Virus record (IMG/VR): IMGVR_UViG_3300025111_000052
Span: 88,035 to 152,034 of that record
Strand: one strand, 5' to 3'
Length of the DNA: 64,000 bases
From: a virus
Both the position numbers and the translations under genes were made by a program. This document shows positions 3,407 through 42,109 of the stretch, piece by piece; the first letter of the stretch is position 1; every line of letters starts with the position of its first letter. The notes beneath the pieces are model-generated. The model did not search any database. It worked only from the letters and a program-made list of their open reading frames with translations, and was not told the DNA's origin.

Positions 3407-3477
3407 GTCCCGTTGGCAGACAGGCGTTGCGGCGAACTCTAAACTCGCTTAAAGGGGTTCAATTCCTCTACGGGACA
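3407..3477 (+). tRNA. tRNA with CTA anticodon (putative amber suppressor)
   Basis: A full cloverleaf can be drawn. The acceptor GTCCCGT pairs perfectly with ACGGGAC. The D-arm is GCA/TGC with a 9-base loop holding GG. The anticodon arm has loop CTCTAAA, the variable loop is TTAA, the T-stem is AGGGG/CCTCT with loop TTCAATT, and the discriminator is A at 3477. With U33 at 3438 the anticodon is CTA (3439-3441), which reads UAG. The only weak points are a 3-bp D-stem and an A-C mismatch closing the anticodon loop. It starts 1 base after the glycosylase gene. The amino acid identity is unknown. Confidence 0.85.
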
Positions 3478-8250: not shown

Positions 8251-9825
8251 ATGAAGAAAATTATAGCTATTAGCGGCACGCATGGTTGTTTTGGTAAAGG
8301 CACCTTAGTTAGAATGTATGATGGTACCATAAAACCAGTCGAACTTATAGTAGTTGGTGATGTTTTAATGGGGGATGACTCTACCCCAAGAAGAGTGTTG
8401 GAACTTAAAGACGGTAGGGAAGATCTTTATGAATTTGAATATATTGATGGAATAAAACATATTTATAATGCAAGTCACGAGTTAGTATTACAATACTCAC
8501 AATCTCGTAAAAGTGGGGCTACAAAAAGATCACTAAAAAAGCAACAATTAGGTGATATACGTATAATAACAGTAAAAAATTATTTAAAATTAGGTAAACA
8601 AAAACAAAGAATTCTTTGTAAGTTTAATGCTGTTATTAAAAGAGCAGTAAGTAGTACCTTAGCAATACCGCCATATATACTGGGTGTTTGGCTTGGTGAT
8701 GGGCATTCAGCAGGAACAAGATTAACTAATACAGATGAAATTATATTAAATACATTTAAGTGTTTCGCTGAAAGCAGAAATTTGTTTTTTAAACACGTTG
8801 GTAATACTAAGTATACTTATGGAATAACTAATGTTAGAGGTAAAGGGAATAGTTTTTTAGTTGATTTACAGAAATATAATTTAATTAATAATAAACATAT
8901 ACCCTTAGATTATTTTAATGCAAGTATAGAACAACGTTTATCCATTATAGCCGGTATACTGGATGCCGATGGACACTTAGATCAACGTAGTAAAGGTAGA
9001 TATGAAGTAAAATTAAAGTCTAAACAACTAGCCTATGATTTATTTTATATTTCTAGAAGTTGCGGTATACACACAACAATAAAAAAAGTAAAATGTGTTT
9101 GCACAAATAATGGTAAAGAGGGATATTATTATAGGGTAAATTTAACAAGAGGTATAGATATAATACCATGTAAACTTGCACATAAAAAGGCGGTACAGGT
9201 AAAAAATCCTCAAAGAACAACATCAAGAGTGGGCATACGTAATGTAACCCCTCTTGGTATTGGCACTTATTATGGATTTACTCTTGACGGTAATAATTTA
9301 TTTCTCCATGCAGATGGTACAGTATTAAAAAACTCTGGAAAAAGCACCATAGCGTATAGTCTTTGTACTAAAATGAAGTTGTCTGGTAAAAATGCCATAG
9401 TACTTGATGAGTTAGCTCGGAAATGCCCCTTTATTATAAATAAGGGGGCAGGTTCCCATACTCCAAGATGGTTAACATGTAAACAAATAACTGAGGAATT
9501 AGAATTACAAGATAAGGTTGATTTTGTTATTGCTGATAGGTCTGTAATGGACGCTTATTGTTACGATCTTACTATACATGGCAGCAATTCTACAATGTCG
9601 GCCTATGAAGGTGTAATAAAGGACCATATACTAAATTTATATAAGACTATTTATATACCAAATATGGATATGTTTAACTTTCAGTTAGCTGATGGTGTAC
9701 GTGATTTGGACCCTAAATTTAGAAGTGATGTAAATACTAATATACTAAATACATATAATAAACTAAATATACCTTATAAAATAATTCATAATATAGATGA
9801 TATATACAATGACTTGGGGTTATAA
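8251..9825 (+). CDS. P-loop kinase (NadR-kinase/AAA_28-like) interrupted by an intein
   Basis: The spliced host protein would be about 175 residues, with MKKIIAISGTHG joined to SGKSTIAY, restoring the Walker A motif GTHGSGKST. The extein continues with DELARKCPF and DFVIADRSVMDAYC, which resemble small nucleotide or ribosylnicotinamide kinases of the AAA_28 group. A deoxynucleotide kinase is another possibility. The uninterrupted precursor cannot have a working P-loop, so activity should require splicing. The gene directly follows the 7473 gene and precedes the FnIII secreted protein. Confidence 0.7.
   Translation: MKKIIAISGTHGCFGKGTLVRMYDGTIKPVELIVVGDVLMGDDSTPRRVLELKDGREDLYEFEYIDGIKHIYNASHELVLQYSQSRKSGATKRSLKKQQLGDIRIITVKNYLKLGKQKQRILCKFNAVIKRAVSSTLAIPPYILGVWLGDGHSAGTRLTNTDEIILNTFKCFAESRNLFFKHVGNTKYTYGITNVRGKGNSFLVDLQKYNLINNKHIPLDYFNASIEQRLSIIAGILDADGHLDQRSKGRYEVKLKSKQLAYDLFYISRSCGIHTTIKKVKCVCTNNGKEGYYYRVNLTRGIDIIPCKLAHKKAVQVKNPQRTTSRVGIRNVTPLGIGTYYGFTLDGNNLFLHADGTVLKNSGKSTIAYSLCTKMKLSGKNAIVLDELARKCPFIINKGAGSHTPRWLTCKQITEELELQDKVDFVIADRSVMDAYCYDLTIHGSNSTMSAYEGVIKDHILNLYKTIYIPNMDMFNFQLADGVRDLDPKFRSDVNTNILNTYNKLNIPYKIIHNIDDIYNDLGL
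8287..9333 (+). mobile_element. intein with LAGLIDADG homing endonuclease (residues 13-361 of the precursor)
   Basis: The insertion begins with Cys13 (block A, CFGKGTLVRMYDG) and ends with Asn361, followed by Ser as the +1 nucleophile. Block B is seen as NASHELVL. Two dodecapeptide motifs, LGVWLGDGH and IAGILDADGH, mark a LAGLIDADG endonuclease. The residue before the terminal Asn is Lys rather than the usual His, a tolerated but non-canonical variant. The insertion point inside the Walker A loop is a classic conserved intein niche. Confidence 0.92.
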
Positions 9826-10954: not shown

Positions 10955-13900
10955 ATGACCCTAAAAGCAGTATTATTTAGCATCATACTAGTTTTATTAA
11001 CACAAGCTACTTCTGCTAACGATTTAGTAGTAGGTGTGTTTGAAAATAAACCTATAACTTACTATGACGAAGATAAAGCACAAGGCCTGTATGTAGATGT
11101 TTTGGATAATATAGCAGCTATGGAGGGTTGGAATATAACTTACAAAAGCTGTAATTTTTCAGAGTGCTTGGATGAACTAAAAACAGGTAAAATAGACCTA
11201 TTACCAGCTATTGCAAAAACAGATTCTCTTGAAGAAACTCTTAGTTTCTCATCTATACCTTTATTTACTTTTTGGGGTGTTGTTTATACACACACTAACA
11301 CAAGTATAAATACTTTTACGGAGTTGAATAATAAGCGTGTAGGGGTTATAAAAGACACAGTAATTGCAAATTCTTTTTACGACTATTGCAATAGTGTTGG
11401 TATTAAACCTACTTTGTTATATTACCAAAGTTATGCTGAATTATTTAATAGTATAAGTAGTAATGAGACCACATTTATTGTGGCCAACAATATCCATGAT
11501 GCTGCCGCGTTAAAAACATATAATATAAAAAGAACGGGTTTATTTTTTTCTCCCTCCACCGCACTATTTGCTACACGTAAAGATCAACATTTAAACATAC
11601 TATCCACTATTGACAATTATATGAAGGATTGGATAATAGATGAAGGATCACCGTACAGTGTTGCATTGCATAAATGGTTTTCAAAACTACCTATACAACA
11701 AAAATATCCTAAATACGGTGTAAAAGAAGTAATACCTTACTTAGTGTTGTTTGTGGCAATAGTAGCCATATTGTTATTGTTTACAACTAAATTTGGTGGT
11801 AAACTTAATACAACCGCGTATTCCATAGTATTCTTTATTTGGACCGCACTTATAGCCAGCTCCTTAGGTTATAACCACACTAGAATACATAATATTATAG
11901 AACACACAGCTTTGCTTGAAGCACAAAACATTTTTGAAAAGGATTTATTGCTTAGATCCTGGATTACTAACTATGGGGGGCTACCCAACTCTAATATGAC
12001 AACTCATAAAAAAGAAACACATGCAAATGTGAAAGAGTGTCTTAATGGTAGTACTAGTAATCCTTTATTCAATCCCAGCGTCGTAATGAGGTACTCATAT
12101 ACTACGCTAAAAAACTTTGATGAGGCTGGAGTAACATTAGATACCCACAAAGCAGCCAGCTCCGCCCGCATTCTGGGTTTTAATACAAAAGATCAGCCAG
12201 AACTTTGGGAAAACAAATTATTAGAGTCTATAAAAGAAGGTAAAAAAATAGAAAGCTACTATGTGGATGATAACACTTTTAGGTATATACACACTATTTA
12301 CGCAGTGGAGGGCTGTAAAGTATGCCACAAACAATTTAAGGATGGGGAATTAGTAGGCGCACTAAGTGTAAGCCTTCCAATGGATCATATGCATGACTTG
12401 GCAGATTCTAAAATGATAGTAGATTTATATTGCCATGCAGCAGTGTATATAATAGGTTTGTTTGGTATTTTTCTTGCGTTACGATCAAATGAATTACGTC
12501 AACAAGACTTACAAAAAGCCTCAATACGCCTTATAGAAAATGAGAAAAAATATAAAGATTTGTTTATGAACGCACCGTTGGCCTATCAATCCTTAGGCAT
12601 ACACGGTGAATTACTTGATGTTAATAATGCTTGGCTAGAATTATTAGGGTATAAAAAAGAAGAAGTACAAAAACGTAATATATTAGATTTTGTTGATAAA
12701 AGATATCATACCTATATAAATGAGCAACTACCTAAATTAAAAAAAGTTGGTTATCTTTCTGGTATAGAATATATTTTAAATAAAGCTGATGGTACTCCAG
12801 TCTGGGTTAGTGTCAGTGGTAGGGTTGGTTATGATAACAATGGTAATTTTAAACAAACACATTGTGTTATTACAGACATATCTGAGCGCAAACAGGCGGA
12901 GGAAGAAACCAAGTTACTAAGCCAGCGTAAAGAAATACTTTTAGAACTTAGTCAGATGGAAGAAAGAGATGAGGCAAGTATATTTGCTTTTGTGGCCGAA
13001 AGTATTTCAAAACTTTGTGACAGTTCTATAAGCTATGTTAGTCTGGTTAATAGTGATGAAGATAAAATAACCCAAGTAGCGTACAATGGCAAAGCTATGA
13101 GTGAATGCTCTAGGTCAGATAAATTAAATGTTACTTATAACTTAGATAAGTGTGGTGTATGGGCAGATTGTTTGAGAACAAGAGAAGCCATTTTTATAAA
13201 TGATTATCCTAATTATATAAATAAACGTGGTTTACCAGAGGGGCATGTGCCTATAACTAATCATATGAACGTACCCGTATTTGATGGTAACAATATTGTA
13301 GCTATTTTTGGTGTAGGTAATAAAAATCATGGTGACTACAACAATAAAGACGTTGACCACTTGCTCAGCCTTGCCGATAATGTTTGGCGTATAATACAAC
13401 GAAAACGTAATATAATAAAAACATTACGATTAGAAAAACAATTACGTGAAGCACAAAAAATGGAGGCCATAGGCACCTTATCTGGTGGGTTATCACATGA
13501 TTTTAATAACATACTACAAATTATTTTAGGCTACTCTGATTTAATTATGCTGGAAATAAATAATGAGAAAACACCAAAAAAAGAGTATATACAAGCAATA
13601 GTAGAGGCTGCTAATAAAGGAGCCCGCTTAACAGGGCAGCTCAGATACTTTTCTGAAAAGGAAAGAAGTTTTAAAGAACCAATTAGCTTAAACAGATCAG
13701 TAGAAAGTACGGTAGAGCTTATGAAAAGAACTATACCTAAGATGATAAACATTGACTACTCCTTAGAAAAAGACCTATACCCTATTATGGCTGATGTTGG
13801 ACAAATAGAGCAGGTTATAATGAATCTTGCTATAAATGCTGTACATGCTATGCCAGATGGTGGTGATTTAAATATAATAACATGTAATACGCATATAGGT

Positions 13901-14572
13901 GCTGGGCATACAGAATTTAAAGAAGGCACCTATGTAGTACTTACGGTTAGTGATACTGGGTGTGGTATACCACAAGAAAACATAAGCAAGATTTTTAATC
14001 CCTTTTTTACTACGAAAAAACAAACGACAGGTGGTTCAGGTTTAGGTTTATATGTGGTTTATGGTATTGTAAAAAACCATTCAGGTTATATAACGTGTGA
14101 TAGCGTAGTTGATCAAGGAACTACCTTTTGTATTTATTTACCGGCGGATAGAACCGCTGTTATCAAACCGCCCACAGCGGTAATCACAGTAACAGATTAT
14201 ACTGAGGGCAATGAAACCATACTTGTGGTAGATGATGAAGAGTTTTTAACTGATTTAACTGAAAATTACTTGACAACACAAGGCTATAATGTTATATTAG
14301 CTAAAAACGGTGAAGAAGCACTGGATATCTATAAGAAAACCTTTAAAATAGATTTAGTTATATTGGATCTTAATATGCCTGGTATGGGTGGTATAGCTTG
14401 TTTGAAAAAACTATTGGAGTATGATCCTAAAGCCAAGGTAATAATTGCCAGTGGTTACTCAGATGCAGGACCTATTGGGGAAACAAAAACTATGGGGGCT
14501 TTAGGTTATTTAAATAAACCCTTCACATTAACTGATTTAGCGGTATTAATAAGACATGTATTAGATAGGTGA
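10955..14572 (+). CDS. hybrid sensor histidine kinase with periplasmic, heme-motif, PAS, GAF and receiver domains
   Basis: Domains in order: signal peptide (1-21); family-3 solute-binding periplasmic domain (about 22-240); membrane segments near 261-278 and 287-305; an extracytoplasmic DUF3365-like segment with CKVCH (454-458), a c-type heme motif; a membrane segment near 490-510; PAS (about 535-645); GAF (about 660-815); HisKA with GGLSHDFNN (His848); HATPase with N957/N961 and DTGCG (1000-1004); receiver with Asp1138 and Lys1188. All catalytic residues are present. In bacteria such proteins sense ligands or redox state and phosphorylate a partner. No output regulator is adjacent. A kinase this large is very unusual in a phage. 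Confidence 0.88.
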   Translation: MTLKAVLFSIILVLLTQATSANDLVVGVFENKPITYYDEDKAQGLYVDVLDNIAAMEGWNITYKSCNFSECLDELKTGKIDLLPAIAKTDSLEETLSFSSIPLFTFWGVVYTHTNTSINTFTELNNKRVGVIKDTVIANSFYDYCNSVGIKPTLLYYQSYAELFNSISSNETTFIVANNIHDAAALKTYNIKRTGLFFSPSTALFATRKDQHLNILSTIDNYMKDWIIDEGSPYSVALHKWFSKLPIQQKYPKYGVKEVIPYLVLFVAIVAILLLFTTKFGGKLNTTAYSIVFFIWTALIASSLGYNHTRIHNIIEHTALLEAQNIFEKDLLLRSWITNYGGLPNSNMTTHKKETHANVKECLNGSTSNPLFNPSVVMRYSYTTLKNFDEAGVTLDTHKAASSARILGFNTKDQPELWENKLLESIKEGKKIESYYVDDNTFRYIHTIYAVEGCKVCHKQFKDGELVGALSVSLPMDHMHDLADSKMIVDLYCHAAVYIIGLFGIFLALRSNELRQQDLQKASIRLIENEKKYKDLFMNAPLAYQSLGIHGELLDVNNAWLELLGYKKEEVQKRNILDFVDKRYHTYINEQLPKLKKVGYLSGIEYILNKADGTPVWVSVSGRVGYDNNGNFKQTHCVITDISERKQAEEETKLLSQRKEILLELSQMEERDEASIFAFVAESISKLCDSSISYVSLVNSDEDKITQVAYNGKAMSECSRSDKLNVTYNLDKCGVWADCLRTREAIFINDYPNYINKRGLPEGHVPITNHMNVPVFDGNNIVAIFGVGNKNHGDYNNKDVDHLLSLADNVWRIIQRKRNIIKTLRLEKQLREAQKMEAIGTLSGGLSHDFNNILQIILGYSDLIMLEINNEKTPKKEYIQAIVEAANKGARLTGQLRYFSEKERSFKEPISLNRSVESTVELMKRTIPKMINIDYSLEKDLYPIMADVGQIEQVIMNLAINAVHAMPDGGDLNIITCNTHIGAGHTEFKEGTYVVLTVSDTGCGIPQENISKIFNPFFTTKKQTTGGSGLGLYVVYGIVKNHSGYITCDSVVDQGTTFCIYLPADRTAVIKPPTAVITVTDYTEGNETILVVDDEEFLTDLTENYLTTQGYNVILAKNGEEALDIYKKTFKIDLVILDLNMPGMGGIACLKKLLEYDPKAKVIIASGYSDAGPIGETKTMGALGYLNKPFTLTDLAVLIRHVLDR

Positions 14573-14578
14573 TTTATA

Positions 14579-15553
14579 ATGATTTATGATATTTTTGATT
14601 GTAAAGTTAGACCTGAAAAAGGGCGTCCCAGATCCAATATATATACAGGAACAGGATCAAATTTTGAAGTGCGCGCAGGTAAATGTGAAGACTTATTGCA
14701 AGCACTTCAAGACGATTCTATCCATGCTATAATCACAGACCCTCCATATGGGGTTAAAATGGATACTTGGGACAACGATATGCCGTCTGTAGAAGTATGG
14801 AACTTATGCTATGATAAATTAAAACCAGGTGGCCACTTAGCTATTTTTTGTCAGCCGTCAATGCTCCCTATTTTATATGCTAGGATGAGTCAAACACAGT
14901 TTGAATTTAGAGATCAATTAATTTGGGCATTTGCAGGTACACATATTAAAGGTATAAAAACAGAAGACGGTTCATATGGTAGTAAGATACGTAATGTCTA
15001 TAACCCTATACTTATATATAGAAAAAAGCTTGTTGGGTCAGAATTAAATAATTGGTCCTTATACAGAACCAATCTACTTAATTTGGAGGATACTCGTCAA
15101 GTGTATAAAGGAGACCATTCTTCAATAGTCAGAAAATTTGAGGAAACTGGTAAGGGGCATATGCAATCAGAGACTAAAAGTAATACATTTAGTAAATTAA
15201 ATAGGACTGAATGGGTGCCTAATAGTAGGGGGGCACTACCAACCAATATACAGTATTGTCCTAGAGCGGCCAAAGAAGAGAAAACTGTAAACAATACTAT
15301 AAACAACCCACATGTATCTGTTAAGCCCTTAGGTATTCTTTCGTGGCTTGTAAAACTTCTAACTAACTCATCCAATCAACTGGTTGCTGATATCTATTGC
15401 GGTACTGGTAGTTTAGGGGTTGTTTGTAGAAAACTAAATAGGCCTTTTTTAGGTATTGAGATGGATCTAGAAACTGTGGAGATAGCAAAGTATAGAATTA
15501 AACATACATTTGACTTAGATGATAAGTATTTTAATAATATAAAACCTATATAA
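14579..15553 (+). CDS. DNA methyltransferase (beta-class, DPPY type)
   Basis: The catalytic motif TDPPYG (near residue 58) comes before the SAM-binding motif DIYCGTGSLG (near residue 270), the order of beta-class N6-adenine or N4-cytosine enzymes. The segment between them, containing the target recognition region, is about 200 residues. It starts 6 bases after the kinase gene. It probably modifies phage DNA at a specific site. No restriction partner is recognisable. Confidence 0.85.
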   Translation: MIYDIFDCKVRPEKGRPRSNIYTGTGSNFEVRAGKCEDLLQALQDDSIHAIITDPPYGVKMDTWDNDMPSVEVWNLCYDKLKPGGHLAIFCQPSMLPILYARMSQTQFEFRDQLIWAFAGTHIKGIKTEDGSYGSKIRNVYNPILIYRKKLVGSELNNWSLYRTNLLNLEDTRQVYKGDHSSIVRKFEETGKGHMQSETKSNTFSKLNRTEWVPNSRGALPTNIQYCPRAAKEEKTVNNTINNPHVSVKPLGILSWLVKLLTNSSNQLVADIYCGTGSLGVVCRKLNRPFLGIEMDLETVEIAKYRIKHTFDLDDKYFNNIKPI

Positions 15554-15720: not shown

Positions 15721-15729
15721 GTGATTAGT

Positions 15730-16572
15730 ATGGCTAAGTCCCCATTAAGGTGGGCTGGCGGGAAAGGTAAGTTATTAAAAGATTTAACTAGCTATATGCC
15801 CACCGCTTATAATAGATACATAGAGAATTTTGCGGGAGGGGCGTCATTCTTTTTTCACTTACGTCCCAAAAACGCTATACTTATAGATTGCAACAGCGAC
15901 CTAATAAATTTTTATAAGGTGCTTAAAAATAATACTCAGGAACTAATAGAAGCGTTGAAACAACACGTAAATGATGAGGCTTATTATTACACAGTCAGAG
16001 ATCAAAAAGGCATGGATCAGTACAGCGATGAAGTAGATATAGACAAAGCAGCAAGATTTCTATTTCTTAATAAAACATGTTTTAATGGTTTGTTTAGAGT
16101 AAACTCTAAGGGTCTTTTTAATGTCCCCTTTGGTTTTAGAAATAACCCGACCATAGATGATGTGTTTTTATTAGAAGAGTGTGCTGAGAGTCTTGCCGAT
16201 ACCCACATCGAACGTGCGCATTACAGCAAAATACTTGATTATGTCAAGAAAGATGACTTTGTATATAGTGATCCTCCTTACGATATATTAGATGGTAATT
16301 CTTTTACAGGTTATAATAAAGATGATTTTAATCAAAAGGATCAACAGCTTGTAAAAAACTTGTGTGATGAATTAAACAGACGTGGCGTAAAATGGATGCT
16401 GTCTAATGCAAATACCGCATTCATACAAGATTTATATAAAGAGTACGTTATTAATGTAATAGAAGTCCACAGGTATATTAATAGCGATGCTGCTGGAAGA
16501 GGTAAAGTAGAAGAAGTTATAGTAACCAACTACCCAATAAAAAAACTTACTGTGGATTTATTTGGAGGATAA
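15730..16572 (+). CDS. Dam-like (D12 class) N6-adenine DNA methyltransferase
   Basis: The N-terminus SPLRWAGGKGKLL is the signature of the D12/Dam family (SAM binding), and SDPPYD (near residue 180) is the catalytic motif. The 280-residue length matches Dam. I chose the ATG at 15730, with AGGTG upstream, over a GTG nine bases earlier. Dam-like enzymes usually methylate GATC; specificity cannot be read here. It overlaps the following nuclease-like gene by one base, so the pair may act together. Confidence 0.88.
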   Translation: MAKSPLRWAGGKGKLLKDLTSYMPTAYNRYIENFAGGASFFFHLRPKNAILIDCNSDLINFYKVLKNNTQELIEALKQHVNDEAYYYTVRDQKGMDQYSDEVDIDKAARFLFLNKTCFNGLFRVNSKGLFNVPFGFRNNPTIDDVFLLEECAESLADTHIERAHYSKILDYVKKDDFVYSDPPYDILDGNSFTGYNKDDFNQKDQQLVKNLCDELNRRGVKWMLSNANTAFIQDLYKEYVINVIEVHRYINSDAAGRGKVEEVIVTNYPIKKLTVDLFGG

Positions 16573-17749: not shown

Positions 17750-18496
17750 ATGAACGACGAGAGTAGTAATAATACAGCTATCTCAACACAAGAAATAGAA
17801 TTAGCTGAATTACTTGATTCTTCTTACCCTTTGGCTAAATGGTTTAAATCTAAGTGCCCTGGCACATTTAAACATAGCCAATCAGTGGCTTCTATGGCAG
17901 AAGCGGTAAGTGCGGAATTAGGACTTGATATTCAATTTATGAAGGTGTGTGCTGTTTATCATGATATTGGTAAATGTGTTAATCCAAACATGTTTTCAGA
18001 AAACCAATTAGACAATGAAAATCCACATGATAGTTTAGACTCATGGATAAGTACTCAGATTATAACAAGGCATGTTGCTGACTCAGTAAATATACTGCTT
18101 GGTGACCATAAATTTCCAAGAAGTGTTATAGAAGTTATAAGTCAACATCATGGTAACGATATAGCTATTTATTTTTATTCAAGGGCAGGTAAAGATGCTG
18201 ATCCAGATTCTTTTAGATATCCTTGCAGTAAACCTAAGTCAATAGAGGCTGCTGTGTTACTTATATGTGATAGAGTAGAGGCCACTAGTAGGTCCCTAGT
18301 TCAATCTGGTAATTTTGATCCTGCCGCCGTATTAGAACAAACCATAAATGGTTTGCTTGATAACGGACAGTTTGATGATGTAAACACCAAACTAGGTAAC
18401 TTAAAGAAAATAAGGGCCGCTCTGGCCAAAGAACTTGAAGGTGTTTATCAAAAGCGTGTGGATTACGCCTCAGCCATAGAGGAGATTAAAGACTAA
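17750..18496 (+). CDS. HD-domain phosphohydrolase
   Basis: The metal-binding H...HD...D pattern is seen as FKHSQSV, YHDIGK (near residue 74) and a later ISQHHGND, matching the HDIG subgroup related to the soluble domain of 7TM-HD proteins. Such enzymes cleave cyclic dinucleotides or nucleotides; a counter-defence role against cyclic nucleotide signalling is possible but not shown. It starts 2 bases after the previous stop. Confidence 0.8.
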   Translation: MNDESSNNTAISTQEIELAELLDSSYPLAKWFKSKCPGTFKHSQSVASMAEAVSAELGLDIQFMKVCAVYHDIGKCVNPNMFSENQLDNENPHDSLDSWISTQIITRHVADSVNILLGDHKFPRSVIEVISQHHGNDIAIYFYSRAGKDADPDSFRYPCSKPKSIEAAVLLICDRVEATSRSLVQSGNFDPAAVLEQTINGLLDNGQFDDVNTKLGNLKKIRAALAKELEGVYQKRVDYASAIEEIKD

Positions 18497-23727: not shown

Positions 23728-24858
23728 ATGGGATTCAGAACATTAGAAGGTGAGTTAGACAACCTCTTCTTCACTGATTATGAGCTGATAGATAGATTTG
23801 TAGGACATACTTTATTTTCTTGGGGTTACAATAACTTTGGGCAAATGGGTGATTCTTCCACTATTTCTAAATCATCCCCAATTCAGATAGGGGCACTTAC
23901 TAATTGGAAACAAGTAAGTTCTATTGGTAATGTCTCTGCTGGTATCAAAACTGACGGTACGTTATGGATGTGGGGCTACAATAATAACGGACAGCTAGGT
24001 GATGGAACAATTGCGCCTAAATCATCCCCGATACAGGTAGGTAGTTTAACAGATTGGTTGTCTATAAAAGTTGGTTCTATAAATGCACTAGCTATAAAAA
24101 CTGATGGTACCTTATGGTCTTGGGGTGCTAATAGCTACGGTCAGTTGGGCGATGGAACAATTGCCCCTAAATCATCTCCAATACAAGTAGGCAGTTTAAC
24201 AGATTGGAAAGATGTAATTACATACGATTCACACGTTTTGGCTATAAAGACCGACGGTACTTTATGGTCTTGGGGTAGAAATACTTATGGGCAGCTTGGT
24301 GATGATACTGTGGTAGGAAAGTCATCTCCTATACAAATTGGAACTTTAACCGATTGGAAAGAGGTTGCTTGTAGTAGTTTATCTTCCCATGCCATAAAGA
24401 CCGATGGTACTTTGTGGGCTTGGGGATATGCTTATGTAGGTGTATTAGGAGATGGTACTACTACACGTAAATCCTCCCCGGTACAGATAGGAGCACTCAC
24501 GGATTGGAAAAATCTTTCAGCTGGTTGGTTACACGTTTTAGCCATTAAGACAGATGGCACTCTTTGGGGATGGGGGTTAAACTACTACGGTCAAATAGGC
24601 GACGGTACTATTGTTGATAAATCATCCCCTGTTCAGGTAGGGGGTTTAACTGATTGGAAACAGACCTCCGCTTGGTCATCCAATTCTTTTGCTACTAAGA
24701 CCGATGGCACTTTGTGGTCTTGGGGCCCTAATAACTACGGCCAGTTGGGAGATGGCACAATTGTACATAAGTCCTCTCCTATACAAGTAGGCTCATTAAC
24801 AAATTGGAAACAGGTGGCTGGTGGAGCAACACCTCTTGTTGTTACATACGGAAACTAA
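23728..24858 (+). CDS. RCC1-repeat beta-propeller protein A, 376 aa
   Basis: About seven repeats of about 51 residues are seen, each with AIKTDGTLWSWG, then YGQLGDGT, then SSPIQVGSLTDWK, the pattern of RCC1/ATS1 blades forming a seven-bladed propeller. The first 35 residues (FRTLEGELDNLFFTDYELIDRF) differ from the other two paralogues and may be a virion attachment segment. No signal peptide is present. Position beside the S74 chaperone and DUF4376 protein suggests a tail-tip or fibre component that binds the host surface. Confidence 0.88.
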   Translation: MGFRTLEGELDNLFFTDYELIDRFVGHTLFSWGYNNFGQMGDSSTISKSSPIQIGALTNWKQVSSIGNVSAGIKTDGTLWMWGYNNNGQLGDGTIAPKSSPIQVGSLTDWLSIKVGSINALAIKTDGTLWSWGANSYGQLGDGTIAPKSSPIQVGSLTDWKDVITYDSHVLAIKTDGTLWSWGRNTYGQLGDDTVVGKSSPIQIGTLTDWKEVACSSLSSHAIKTDGTLWAWGYAYVGVLGDGTTTRKSSPVQIGALTDWKNLSAGWLHVLAIKTDGTLWGWGLNYYGQIGDGTIVDKSSPVQVGGLTDWKQTSAWSSNSFATKTDGTLWSWGPNNYGQLGDGTIVHKSSPIQVGSLTNWKQVAGGATPLVVTYGN

Positions 24859-24871
24859 ATGGAGGATATAA

Positions 24872-25504
24872 ATGAAAGTATTAGTATCTAATAATAAAGT
24901 GATATTAGGGCCTACCTGGTGGAACCAGAATATGTTTCAATCTGTTTTAACAGATGAGCTAGGTTTAAATTTTACACTTCCAACTATTACGGAAGATTCA
25001 GCAGCATACTCAGTTAGTGATACTGTAAAGATACTTCCTGTTGAATTTACTGCTGTAAATTATGACCACAGGATTCAGCAACTAGCCGGGCCTAATTGGA
25101 CGATACAAGCGGATAAGGCTATCGCCAGCTACACCGTTGTAGATAGACCTATTGAAGCTGTACGTAATGAACTTAAAGCAAAAGTGGCTAATCTTCGTTG
25201 GCAGAAAGAGGTTAGCGGTACAAAAATCACACTTCAAGACCAAGAAATAGGAGTTGCAACTGATAGGGAGACACGCAATATGTACTCACAGGCATTACTA
25301 CTTGGTGTTGCTGGTGTTAATTGGAAGTTTGGTAATACATGGCTTGTATTATCTCTTGCAGATCTACAAGTTCTGGTATCTGCTGTATTAGCACATATAC
25401 AAGCGCAATTTGAATGGGAATCTGGCATAGTTACATCAATAAATAACGCGGTTGATTTAAATACTCTTACTGCAATAGATGATTCTCTTGATGTACTACT
25501 ATAA
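24872..25504 (+). CDS. DUF4376-like phage tail protein, 210 aa
   Basis: The second half, with VRNELKAKVANLRWQKEVSG, a DRETRNMYSQ segment and a final helix around QAQFEWESGI, matches the DUF4376 domain found near tail fibre genes and thought to be a fibre assembly or attachment protein. It lies between two RCC1-propeller genes and has a GGAGG ribosome binding site. Confidence 0.72.
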   Translation: MKVLVSNNKVILGPTWWNQNMFQSVLTDELGLNFTLPTITEDSAAYSVSDTVKILPVEFTAVNYDHRIQQLAGPNWTIQADKAIASYTVVDRPIEAVRNELKAKVANLRWQKEVSGTKITLQDQEIGVATDRETRNMYSQALLLGVAGVNWKFGNTWLVLSLADLQVLVSAVLAHIQAQFEWESGIVTSINNAVDLNTLTAIDDSLDVLL

Positions 25505-25519
25505 TACCGAGGTGTAAAG

Positions 25520-26698
25520 ATGACAATAACGACCAACTATAAAAGAGCAGATGGTTCTGACTGCGGTAACTTTGTCACAAAAGATTATTTGTTACGTGTT
25601 TACCCACAATTAGTACCGTCCTCAAAAAGGGCTAGTATATGGACTTGGGGACAAAATGCTAGTGGGCAATTAGGTGACAGTACTTTAATTGGTAAATCTT
25701 CACCAATACAACTCGGTTCCTTGGTAGATTGGAAAAACATTGCTGGTGGGTGGCAGCAAATGATAGCCACTAAGAATGACAACACTTTGTGGACTTGGGG
25801 CAACAATGTATACGGACAGTTGGGTGATGGTACAACCACAAGATCCATATCTCCGCAACAAATTGGGGCTCTTACGGATTGGGCAAGTGTTGCTTCTGGG
25901 CATATTTTTATGTTAGCTTTAAAAACTGATGGCACCATATGGTCTATCGGCGGATCTAATACTGTCGGACAACTTGCAGATGGTACAACTATTTCTAAAT
26001 CATCCCCAATTCAGATAGGGGCGCTTACTAATTGGATATCGATAGCCAGTGGGGGTGGGCATGGCGCAGCTATAAATTCGAGCGGCGCACTCTGGATGTG
26101 GGGAAGTAATACAGACGGCCAGTTAGCGGATGGGACTTTGGATAGTAAATCCTCTCCAATTCAGGTAGGGAGTTTAACTGATTGGAAGCAAGTTTCTTGT
26201 GGCCAATTATATACCCTTGCTTTAAAATTGGATGGTACCTTATGGTCCTGGGGCTATAATAATGGTGGCCAACTTGGAGATGCTACTAGTGTGGGTAAAT
26301 CATCACCGGTACAGATAGGCTCCTCGACCGACTGGGCTAGCTGTGAGGCGGGGCAATATCATGCAGCAGCCATAAAAACCGATGGTACCTTGTGGACTTG
26401 GGGTGCTAATAACTACGGACAGCTGGGTTTGGGTTCTGTGCTTACAGCAAACTACTCTTCACCAGTACAAGTAGGCTCCCTTAGTAATTGGAAAAAAGTA
26501 TCTTGTGGATATAGTTATACCACAGCTTTAAAAACGGACGGCACTATTTGGACTTGGGGCTTTAATACCGATGGGCAACTTGGGGACAACACAAATGTAC
26601 ATAAGTCATCTCCAATCCAAGTCGGGGGTCTAAATAATTGGAAAAACATTTTCGGATGTAATACCAGCGTAATAGCTATAACAGATTTAAATTATTAG
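25520..26698 (+). CDS. RCC1-repeat beta-propeller protein B, 392 aa
   Basis: Seven RCC1-type repeats are visible (for example IWTWGQNASGQLGD, ALKTDGTIWS, SSPIQIGALTNW). The N-terminal 35 residues (TNYKRADGSDCGNFVTKDYL) differ from those of proteins A and C. Nucleotide-level near-identity with protein A over about 48 bases (25989-26036 versus 23861-23908) suggests recent exchange between repeats. It ends in TAG. A role as a host-binding or decoration propeller is inferred from context. Confidence 0.88.
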   Translation: MTITTNYKRADGSDCGNFVTKDYLLRVYPQLVPSSKRASIWTWGQNASGQLGDSTLIGKSSPIQLGSLVDWKNIAGGWQQMIATKNDNTLWTWGNNVYGQLGDGTTTRSISPQQIGALTDWASVASGHIFMLALKTDGTIWSIGGSNTVGQLADGTTISKSSPIQIGALTNWISIASGGGHGAAINSSGALWMWGSNTDGQLADGTLDSKSSPIQVGSLTDWKQVSCGQLYTLALKLDGTLWSWGYNNGGQLGDATSVGKSSPVQIGSSTDWASCEAGQYHAAAIKTDGTLWTWGANNYGQLGLGSVLTANYSSPVQVGSLSNWKKVSCGYSYTTALKTDGTIWTWGFNTDGQLGDNTNVHKSSPIQVGGLNNWKNIFGCNTSVIAITDLNY

Positions 26699-26706
26699 GA
26701 GATAAA

Positions 26707-27852
26707 ATGTCAAATCCAACAGGCTATAAATTTACTTATAATGATCAGGTAGTAGATTTTAATGACTTGTTCACCCGGAGAGATTTATTTGACTTTGGTA
26801 ATTTATTTACATCCGGTGATAACGAATTCGGCGCCATAGGCGATAGCACACAAGTACACAAATCATCTCCAATTCAAGTGGGTGGTTTTAATAATTGGAA
26901 ACTAATTGCAGGCGGTTACAGACAATTTTCTGCAATTAAAGCTGATGGTACCTTGTGGTCATGGGGTAGAAACCATTACGGTCAATTAGGGGATAGCACT
27001 TTGGTAGATAAATCATCCCCAATACAAGTAGGAAATCTTACTGATTGGCATACACTGGCTAGCGGGCGTGTCCATCTAGCGGCTATAAAAGAAGATAACT
27101 CACTATGGGCTTGGGGTTATAATGGTTATGGCCAACTTGGTAACAATAGCATAGTTAATACATCATCTCCAATACAAGTAGGATCTCTCACTAATTGGCA
27201 GCATATTTCCTGTGGTACATACCATACTGCGGCCCTTAAAACAGATGGAACTATTTGGACTTGGGGTTTTAATGATAGCGGTCAATTAGGTGATGGGACG
27301 GTTGTGTCTAAATCATCCCCAATTCAAGTTGGCTCTGACACAGATTGGGCATTGATAAATTGTGGGTACTACGCTACCATGGCAATTAAAAATGATGGTT
27401 CCCTTTGGCTATGGGGTGATAACGCCTTAGGACAGCTTGGAGATGGTACAACAACACCAACAAGTTCACCTGTGCAACTTGGGTCACTTACTGATTGGAA
27501 ATCGGTATTGGGTGGTTTCAATTTTACGGTTGCAATTAAAACTGATGGTAGCTTGTGGTCTTGGGGACGAAATCTTCGTGGTAATTTAGGTATCGGTACT
27601 TTTGAGGATAAATCATCTCCTATACAAGTGGGCGCTATGACAGACTGGAAAACGGTGGCCTTAGGTTATAGCCATGTATTAGCAATTAGAACTGATGGTA
27701 CACTATGGGGCTGGGGTTATAATACGACTGGAACACTAGCTTTGGGTGACATAGTAGATAAGCCTACTCCCACCCAAATTAGTTCTAGAACAAACTGGAA
27801 GAGCATAGGTTGTGCTAACTTCACATCAGGTTTTATTACATATGCAAATTAA
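26707..27852 (+). CDS. RCC1-repeat beta-propeller protein C, 381 aa
   Basis: This third paralogue has seven RCC1-type repeats (WSWGRNHYGQLGD, SSPIQVGNLTDW and similar) and its own N-terminal segment (TYNDQVVDFNDLFTRRDLFDF). It is the last gene of the rightward block and is followed at once by a bidirectional terminator. Three tandem RCC1 genes in a phage fibre region are unusual and suggest alternative or stacked receptor-binding modules. Confidence 0.88.
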   Translation: MSNPTGYKFTYNDQVVDFNDLFTRRDLFDFGNLFTSGDNEFGAIGDSTQVHKSSPIQVGGFNNWKLIAGGYRQFSAIKADGTLWSWGRNHYGQLGDSTLVDKSSPIQVGNLTDWHTLASGRVHLAAIKEDNSLWAWGYNGYGQLGNNSIVNTSSPIQVGSLTNWQHISCGTYHTAALKTDGTIWTWGFNDSGQLGDGTVVSKSSPIQVGSDTDWALINCGYYATMAIKNDGSLWLWGDNALGQLGDGTTTPTSSPVQLGSLTDWKSVLGGFNFTVAIKTDGSLWSWGRNLRGNLGIGTFEDKSSPIQVGAMTDWKTVALGYSHVLAIRTDGTLWGWGYNTTGTLALGDIVDKPTPTQISSRTNWKSIGCANFTSGFITYAN

Positions 27853-40723: not shown

Positions 40724-42109
40724 TTATCCTGTTTCTTTGGTGAAGCCGGCCGCCTCGTACTCGCGTAACCATGCCACCACTGCTTCACTCCAACCATCAA
40801 TGTGTACCCATGGCTGGTAACCAACACCATTTACATTGGAGGCTACATTTATCATGTAGCCAACCCCTTGCGGAGCAGGTACTGGGTCATTCGATTGCTC
40901 GTCGGTCAAAATTACAAGCCTGTCCGGATTTAGCCCTTGTCCTGGGAATACTACCTCCGTCATCATATGTTTATTAGACAACGTCACAGCAGATTTGGAA
41001 TAAATCGCATTTATGGCGGTGCCAAGAAACGTGGCTCTCATAACCTGGCTTTTCATTATGGCGTCCCGTAAGGCGAATCCATGCCTTGGTGGAATACGCA
41101 CCAATTGTCTGCTAAAAGTGTAAATAAGCACTTCTTCACAAACTTCACGCATCAATAATGCCAGACCAATTGCTGCGTCACTTCTTGTCAGTTCTGACTT
41201 TGCAGACAGGGGTTGATCCATACTGCCACTGTGGTCCAACAATAAAACCGTTCGACCAGGAATCTTGGGCTGACTTTCAAGACATTTAAACATACTCTGT
41301 TCCAAAACGTCTTCAAGATGTGGTGCATGTCTGGCGGCGGATATGAAACGGAAAGGCAATACCTTATCCGTAGACATCTTTTGAATTGCTGTCCGCATGA
41401 GGCCTTCGTCAACACCACAGTCAGTCATATGACGGAGACTACCCAACAAGGCAATAGCTCCAAGTTTATTTTCCTGAAGCAGGCGTGTCCATTCCGTTTT
41501 CTGATCTCTACCAGAAGACAAAGCAGTCTCCCGTGTATCCGGTGTGGCCAATGTGCCCTCCATCAACCTGCCCCACATGGCCCCCTGTTCCTCATTCAAC
41601 GGTTTTGGATGTATCAACTGAAATACATCACGTAACTTTATTTCAGTTTTCCTGTTCCATTTGGCCATTTGATACTCGTTGAATTTTGTTACCGCTTTTG
41701 CCAAACCGCGTTTTACCTGGGCAGCGATGGGGGTCTTGCCCTTCTTCCAATACAGGGACAGAAACTCACACAGCTCGTCCGGTCGTTGAATTACTTCGTG
41801 CAGCACGTCTGCCACGTAGTTTTTTGTGGCGGTGTATTTGAGCATGCTGTTTGCCACCCACAAGGGGGCATGGCGCAACTTCATATCATTACGAAGGCCC
41901 ACCGCCAATTGTGCCACAAACTTTGGATCACATTTACCGACCAGCTCCGAGATACGGTCAGCGATAGCTTCACCGCTTTCATAAAACTCTCTTTCCCATA
42001 GAAGGCAGCACATGGTTGATCTGCGTAGGGCCTGCTCCGGTGTTATGTGTTTTGCCTTGGCCCCTTCATGTGTAAATAAGGGCTGAGGTTTTTTGTTTAC
42101 TCTGGCCAT
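40724..42109 (-). CDS. rsr: Ro60/TROVE-domain protein (bacterial Rsr-like)
   Basis: The N-terminal 280 residues are helical TROVE repeats, with recognisable family segments (LRNDMKLRHAPLWVANSML, KLRDVFQLIHPKP, AIALLGSLRHM). The C-terminal von Willebrand A domain has an intact metal site: DHSGS (292-296), Thr364 and Asp403 (LTDEQS). Ro60 is a ring that binds Y RNAs on its outside and ends of misfolded or structured RNAs in its central hole. The length of 461 residues is normal. It follows a small coiled-coil gene and a non-coding block rich in structured RNAs, one with a YrlA-like tRNA-mimic fold. Confidence 0.93.
   Translation of the reverse strand: MARVNKKPQPLFTHEGAKAKHITPEQALRRSTMCCLLWEREFYESGEAIADRISELVGKCDPKFVAQLAVGLRNDMKLRHAPLWVANSMLKYTATKNYVADVLHEVIQRPDELCEFLSLYWKKGKTPIAAQVKRGLAKAVTKFNEYQMAKWNRKTEIKLRDVFQLIHPKPLNEEQGAMWGRLMEGTLATPDTRETALSSGRDQKTEWTRLLQENKLGAIALLGSLRHMTDCGVDEGLMRTAIQKMSTDKVLPFRFISAARHAPHLEDVLEQSMFKCLESQPKIPGRTVLLLDHSGSMDQPLSAKSELTRSDAAIGLALLMREVCEEVLIYTFSRQLVRIPPRHGFALRDAIMKSQVMRATFLGTAINAIYSKSAVTLSNKHMMTEVVFPGQGLNPDRLVILTDEQSNDPVPAPQGVGYMINVASNVNGVGYQPWVHIDGWSEAVVAWLREYEAAGFTKETG

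Follow-up and report, generated by a model that had tools for sequence, protein, structure and literature searches.

Members of the sCache_heme family are Cache domains carrying a covalent heme c, with CXXCH conserved in 99% of them; the one sensor-type relative characterised so far is a tight NO binder that forms no stable complex with oxygen, and phages and viruses go unmentioned in that account (PMC12889525, 2026 preprint). Bacterial kinases of the family (PF11845, mostly Desulfobacterota) share a layout of two helices flanking a periplasmic CxxCH domain, followed by PAS and GAF domains, an HPK4-like kinase and a receiver; examples are a 1,207-aa protein and a 948-aa protein that aligns to residues 279–1203 of the phage protein described here. 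A second bacterial group, the SBP_bac_3 histidine kinases, begins with a secreted N-terminal solute-binding domain followed by a helix.

The window analysed here is a 64,000-nucleotide stretch, bases 88035–152034 of a 152,034-bp virus record that is itself incomplete. By PHROGs, the record encodes a family-A-type DNA polymerase, a DnaB-like helicase, a ribonucleotide reductase and tail-fibre-like proteins, and most of its structural genes have no PHROG match. Within the window lies a gene combining elements of both bacterial groups, whose orthologue in a diverged 234-kb phage is used for comparison throughout:

10955–14572, + strand: hybrid sensor histidine kinase of 1,205 aa, whole gene including stop (ORF, Pfam, orthologue alignment, dN/dS)
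10955–11017, + strand: predicted signal peptide, about residues 1–21 (...TQATSA-N; residues 1–19 hydrophobic, cleavage site placed by eye)
11024–11722, + strand: SBP_bac_3-type periplasmic solute-binding domain, residues 24–256 (Pfam, 43.9 bits over 24–207)
11729–11869, + strand: two predicted membrane helices, about residues 259–277 and 287–305, with the loop KFGGKLN between them
11879–12412, + strand: DUF3365/Tll0287-like (sCache_heme) domain, residues 309–486 (bacterial-only profile; shared invariant residues)
12314–12328, + strand: CKVCH c-type heme attachment motif, residues 454–458 (translation; CKNCH in the orthologue)
12425–12481, + strand: third predicted membrane helix, about residues 491–509 (hydropathy)
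12602–12886, + strand: PAS domain, residues 550–644 (Pfam PAS_9, 47.8 bits)
12965–13399, + strand: GAF domain, residues 671–815 (Pfam GAF_2, 80.9 bits)
13475–14149, + strand: histidine kinase core, residues 841–1065 (HisKA 841–903, HATPase_c 947–1065), with H848 in LSHDFNN (Pfam, motifs)
14219–14548, + strand: receiver domain, residues 1089–1198, with phospho-acceptor D1138 and K1188 (Pfam Response_reg, 84.9 bits; motifs)
14579–15553, + strand: N6/N4 DNA methyltransferase, 6 bp downstream of the kinase (PF01555, phrog_67)

The kinase ORF runs uninterrupted from an ATG to a TGA with its catalytic motifs complete, in agreement with a sequence-only reading that had taken it for a full-length, intact sensor kinase. 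The domains listed in that reading (periplasmic binding domain, DUF3365-like CxxCH segment, PAS, GAF, kinase core and receiver) were all recovered, in this order, by Pfam and the bacterial-only profile. The predicted topology is a secreted solute-binding domain, a helix, a short loop, a second helix, a periplasmic heme domain, a third helix and a cytoplasmic PAS–GAF–kinase–receiver portion. Helix 259–277 was assigned from hydropathy, and helix 287–305 by aligning the protein with bacterial sCache_heme sensors, whose N-terminal helix is conserved; the heme domain's predicted periplasmic placement between helices agrees with both helix positions and that alignment. The order of helices and domains thus places CKVCH in the periplasm, the compartment in which c-type heme attachment takes place. 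The nearest solved relatives of the solute-binding domain are amino-acid-binding proteins.

HisKA scores 26.6 bits against a cut-off of 26.9 (0.3 bits under) and HATPase_c 84 bits against 26.4. The phospho-acceptor H848 lies in an H-box, LSHDFNNIL, that is invariant in both phages, and the ATP-binding boxes are present (N, NLAINA; G1, DTGCGIP; F, FNPFFTT; G2, GGSGLGL), as are the receiver's aspartate pair D1093/D1094, acceptor D1138 and lysine K1188. Judged by its H-box, ATP-binding domain and receiver, the phage gene is a hybrid histidine kinase, for which autophosphorylation and phosphotransfer are predicted.

The Pfam model for the heme domain (Tll0287-like, PF11845) matches residues 401–475 at 23.0 bits, 1.1 under the gathering cut-off of 24.1, and a search of the orthologue protein with PF11845 did not report the domain. 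As the score fell just short, the domain was tested independently with a profile of 25 bacterial sCache_heme domains that left out the phage sequences. This gave 103 bits for the window protein and 91 bits for the orthologue, with none of 400 shuffled control sequences reported. Used as a tblastn query, the phage domain hit 127 of 395 genomes (best E 2e-18), a set confined to one phylum of Desulfobacterota type, that of a deltaproteobacterial MAG and including Geobacteraceae. Two long bacterial relatives pass PF11845 at ~73 bits. Identity between the phage domain and bacterial sCache_heme is 22–30%, and the residues invariant from phage to bacteria are, in order, W, KD, R, W, G, N, R, W, E, CxxCH, G, G and P. 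In 15 of the 15 best bacterial loci, CxxCH (C454, C457 and H458 in the phage) falls in the same alignment column, and both phage versions, CKVCH and CKNCH, align with the bacterial motif. This position, together with the profile score, rules out a chance CxxCH and upholds the c-type heme motif read from the sequence alone. Since the PF11845 cut-off is a curation threshold and not a biological feature, we call the domain a diverged homologue: on profile and alignment evidence it is a real sCache_heme domain, predicted to load heme.

Cys362, a possible counterpart of the sixth-ligand cysteine of Tll0287, is kept in both phages and absent in the bacterial sensors. A profile made from phage and bacterial domains matches exactly three PDB structures, Tll0287 (5B82), GSU0582 (3B47) and GSU0935 (3B42), a result that adds no independent support for the phage copy, bacterial rows being part of that profile; the phage heme sequence alone found none of the three in the PDB. 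An AlphaFold2 model from a two-sequence alignment had a mean pLDDT of 33 and was left unused.

The closest kinase cores found were those of Desulfobacterota-type hybrid kinases (46–50% identity, best 358 bits), against 33–42% and a best of 312 bits for Bacteroidota hybrid kinases. In a tree of kinase cores, the two phage sequences group together with full support, on a long branch nested in the Desulfobacterota-type clade and apart from the kinase of a 735-kb phage, which was the one further phage hybrid kinase in the tree; as the search was limited to Desulfobacterota-type and Bacteroidota sequences, the tree shows direction and not a donor. Of two early contig scans, one found no relative and the other PAS/GAF relatives only. 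The gene matches its surroundings in base composition (34% G+C), which indicates that its acquisition is old.

Residues 1–512, searched against the 395 genomes, gave two disjoint sets of matches. Those to the solute-binding domain end at residues 240–283, those to the heme domain start at 276–294, and no match among these genomes of one phylum spans both modules; nor did any single ORF among the fetched loci contain both. The bacterial matches break at the two-helix region (11729–11869), the junction of the SBP-type and heme-type halves. The phage protein therefore looks like an SBP-plus-helix front set before a complete helix–heme–helix kinase, with what looks like the joint in the loop KFGGKLN. 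Few candidates were scored per genome and one phylum was sampled, so the pairing may exist elsewhere.

We regard it as probable that the gene encodes a membrane-spanning hybrid kinase, an SBP–helix front on a heme-type kinase, with which the phage senses the periplasm and steers host physiology. Early in the phage lineage, the SBP-plus-helix front of one bacterial kinase would have been joined to a complete Desulfobacterota-type sCache_heme kinase. During infection the protein would be expressed and inserted in the host inner membrane, where the host's own cytochrome c maturation system would attach heme at CKVCH on the periplasmic side. The periplasmic domains may then read a small amino-acid-like solute and a heme ligand or redox state, NO being the likeliest ligand by analogy. 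Autophosphorylation on H848 would be followed by transfer to D1138, and the phosphate could pass on, directly or via host proteins, to response regulators, whose output would adapt host physiology to the phage's needs. The rewiring of host redox signalling that the sequence-only reading proposed would be one form of this, although the sole characterised relative of sensor type binds NO.

No other receiver was found in the incomplete 152-kb record, and no HPt protein in either the 152-kb or the 234-kb record, which tells against such a relay. The 234-kb relative encodes a 358-aa receiver-HD-GYP response regulator (190494–191570, − strand), adjoined by a weak-receiver membrane protein (the pair spanning 189629–191570, − strand). 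The named family nearest to the regulator is that of the NosR c-di-GMP phosphodiesterase, which it matches at 207 bits where the cut-off is 400, a resemblance only. In the relative, a heme signal could thus act on cyclic-di-GMP, by a route that is putative.

Could the gene be without a role in the phage, either a passenger acquired from a host or a product of chimeric assembly? In favour of this, its kinase core is of bacterial type. Two further IMG/VR contigs, with other metagenome numbers, hold the kinase within 23.6 kb identical to the window, and the 234-kb contig IMGVR_UViG_3300037692_000137 is colinear with the 152-kb record over ~128 kb, with proteins mostly 70–97% identical. There, the kinase orthologue occupies the same place at full length, with 69.5% identity. 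The related phages in which the sequence-only reading had advised looking for the gene thus do carry it, and a host-contig chimera is ruled out by the identical DNA in three contigs and the colinear diverged relative; the conservation of the gene borders in diverged genomes answers the objection of assembly breakpoints. Relatives found through a neighbouring 663-aa gene also carry the kinase in three of three cases, and it is single-copy in each phage record, with one HATPase domain in each. With the gene besides intact at a dS of ~1.4, where synonymous sites are saturated, a passenger or chimera is very improbable. Between the two phages, the kinase has a dN of 0.207, a dS of 1.45 and a dN/dS of 0.14, above the genome median of 0.078 (rank 74 of 86) and far from neutrality. 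At this dS, such a ratio indicates that selection keeps the gene, and together with the intact motifs it rules out decay.

Selection is uneven along the protein, with dN/dS of 0.058 for GAF, 0.066 for the kinase core, 0.087 for the receiver, 0.111 for PAS, 0.187 for the heme domain and 0.287 for the solute-binding domain, so that the sensing parts evolve faster than the output parts. By analogy, this may resemble the tuning of bacterial sensor kinases to new inputs. It would also suit a heme motif that is a relic, the phage using a solute-binding-domain kinase in which the heme domain is merely a spacer: the divergence of that domain exceeds that of the kinase, and several bacterial motifs (of GGVYV and NPAYMTRQ type) are missing from it. 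Yet both phages retain CxxCH, with its H458, and the GD..G and P that flank it, though 38% of the domain's residues differ, and we consider a relic unlikely. A kinase acting as a decoy or phosphate sink, which drains or scrambles a host phosphorelay and reports no signal, would fit a hybrid that ends in a receiver and for which the 152-kb record yielded no cognate partner. Such a decoy would have no need of the two periplasmic domains, however, and purifying selection maintains both of them in the two phages; we rate it as distinctly unlikely. The reading as a periplasm-sensing kinase that steers the host fits this retention. In a bolder form, which we offer as a tentative and rather doubtful proposal, a jumbo phage would sense NO or periplasmic redox together with a solute through its own dual-input covalent-heme kinase in the host membrane, and so decide the course of infection, in the relative perhaps through the receiver-HD-GYP cyclic-di-GMP phosphodiesterase.

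The methyltransferase at 14579–15553 is probably co-transcribed with the kinase, and a second DNA methyltransferase gene (15721–16572) also lies downstream. The context first described, with the kinase between methyltransferases and FnIII export proteins, holds in part: the methyltransferases are there but both are downstream, and the upstream 229-aa protein looks secreted and FnIII-like by eye, with no Pfam, PHROG or NCBIfam support for FnIII. Further on (17750–18496, + strand) is a soluble 248-aa HD protein, 87% conserved in the related phage, with a near-full-length match (3.9e-38) to the cyclic-di-AMP phosphodiesterase domain of PgpH (Lmo1466, 4S1B); it may be an enzyme that counters nucleotide signalling or defence. 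Three adjoining, mutually similar RCC1-repeat proteins follow at 23728–27852 (+ strand).

To the left of the kinase, an intein with a LAGLIDADG homing endonuclease sits inside a P-loop kinase gene (8251–9825, + strand). It is 99.2% identical to that of the related phage, and its dS of 0.026 against ~0.8 in the flanking genes marks it, on divergence, as a recent homing event with co-conversion. A second intein, in a transglutaminase-like protein, lies just left of the window (86184–87971 of the virus record). A tRNA at 3407–3477 (+ strand), confirmed by Rfam, has the anticodon CUA and is amber suppressor-like (Pyl by ARAGORN); TAG is still the stop codon of ~22 of 153 ORFs in the 152-kb record. 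On the − strand are a TROVE/Ro60-like RNA-binding protein (40724–42109), near which Rfam found no Y RNA at gathering cut-offs, and a 1,138-aa protein (60235–63651) with weak matches to RNA polymerase Rpb2 domain 6 and Rpb1 domain 2, which may be a two-barrel RNA polymerase in a single chain. The 234-kb relative has a single 7,715-aa ORF (119994–143141, − strand), whose homologue is cut by the left end of the 152-kb record.

Examples of phages that listen to peptides or autoinducers, and of phages that carry metabolic genes, are known. The retention of this kinase under selection in two diverged viruses suggests sensing, by the virus itself, of the chemistry outside the host in the course of infection. 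If so, a transmembrane c-type-heme sensor kinase kept in two diverged phages would be a case of phage monitoring of that chemistry and a concrete test of whether viruses install environmental sensors of their own, and solute binding with heme would be a new domain combination for two-component signalling.

Among viruses, the heme module appears confined to this lineage. The heme/sensor domain found nothing in 50,697 phage records (INPHARED), even at E 0.1, and kinase-core matches there were mostly to contaminant-looking or unannotated records. Motif scans of 2.9 million viral contigs for other sCache_heme genes returned this lineage only; three further matches were chance hits lacking the heme domain, and as such scans need exact short motifs, diverged copies would be missed. 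A search of open-licence papers gave no account of a phage heme-type kinase. The statement that no other phage carries one holds, then, within the collections searched, partly by exact-pattern scans. The broader one, that phages rarely carry sensor kinases, has to be qualified, since phage hybrid kinases are not unknown. The 735-kb uncultured phage LR756501 encodes one of 737 aa. It resembles the window kinase in carrying a receiver, but its sensor is of a soluble PAS–PAS type, it lacks both membrane helix and heme motif, and in the kinase tree it branches apart. The SBP_bac_3 histidine kinases, whose matches in the 395 genomes run as far as residues 245–283, share the front of the phage protein and, in those found, lack a heme domain in the same ORF. 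Set against the bacterial sCache_heme kinases, the window kinase differs in its phage location, in the added solute-binding domain and helix at its front and in the absence of some family motifs. On sequence comparison it thus belongs to a known bacterial sensor class carried, unexpectedly, by a phage, and its domain pairing was unseen in the sampled genomes.
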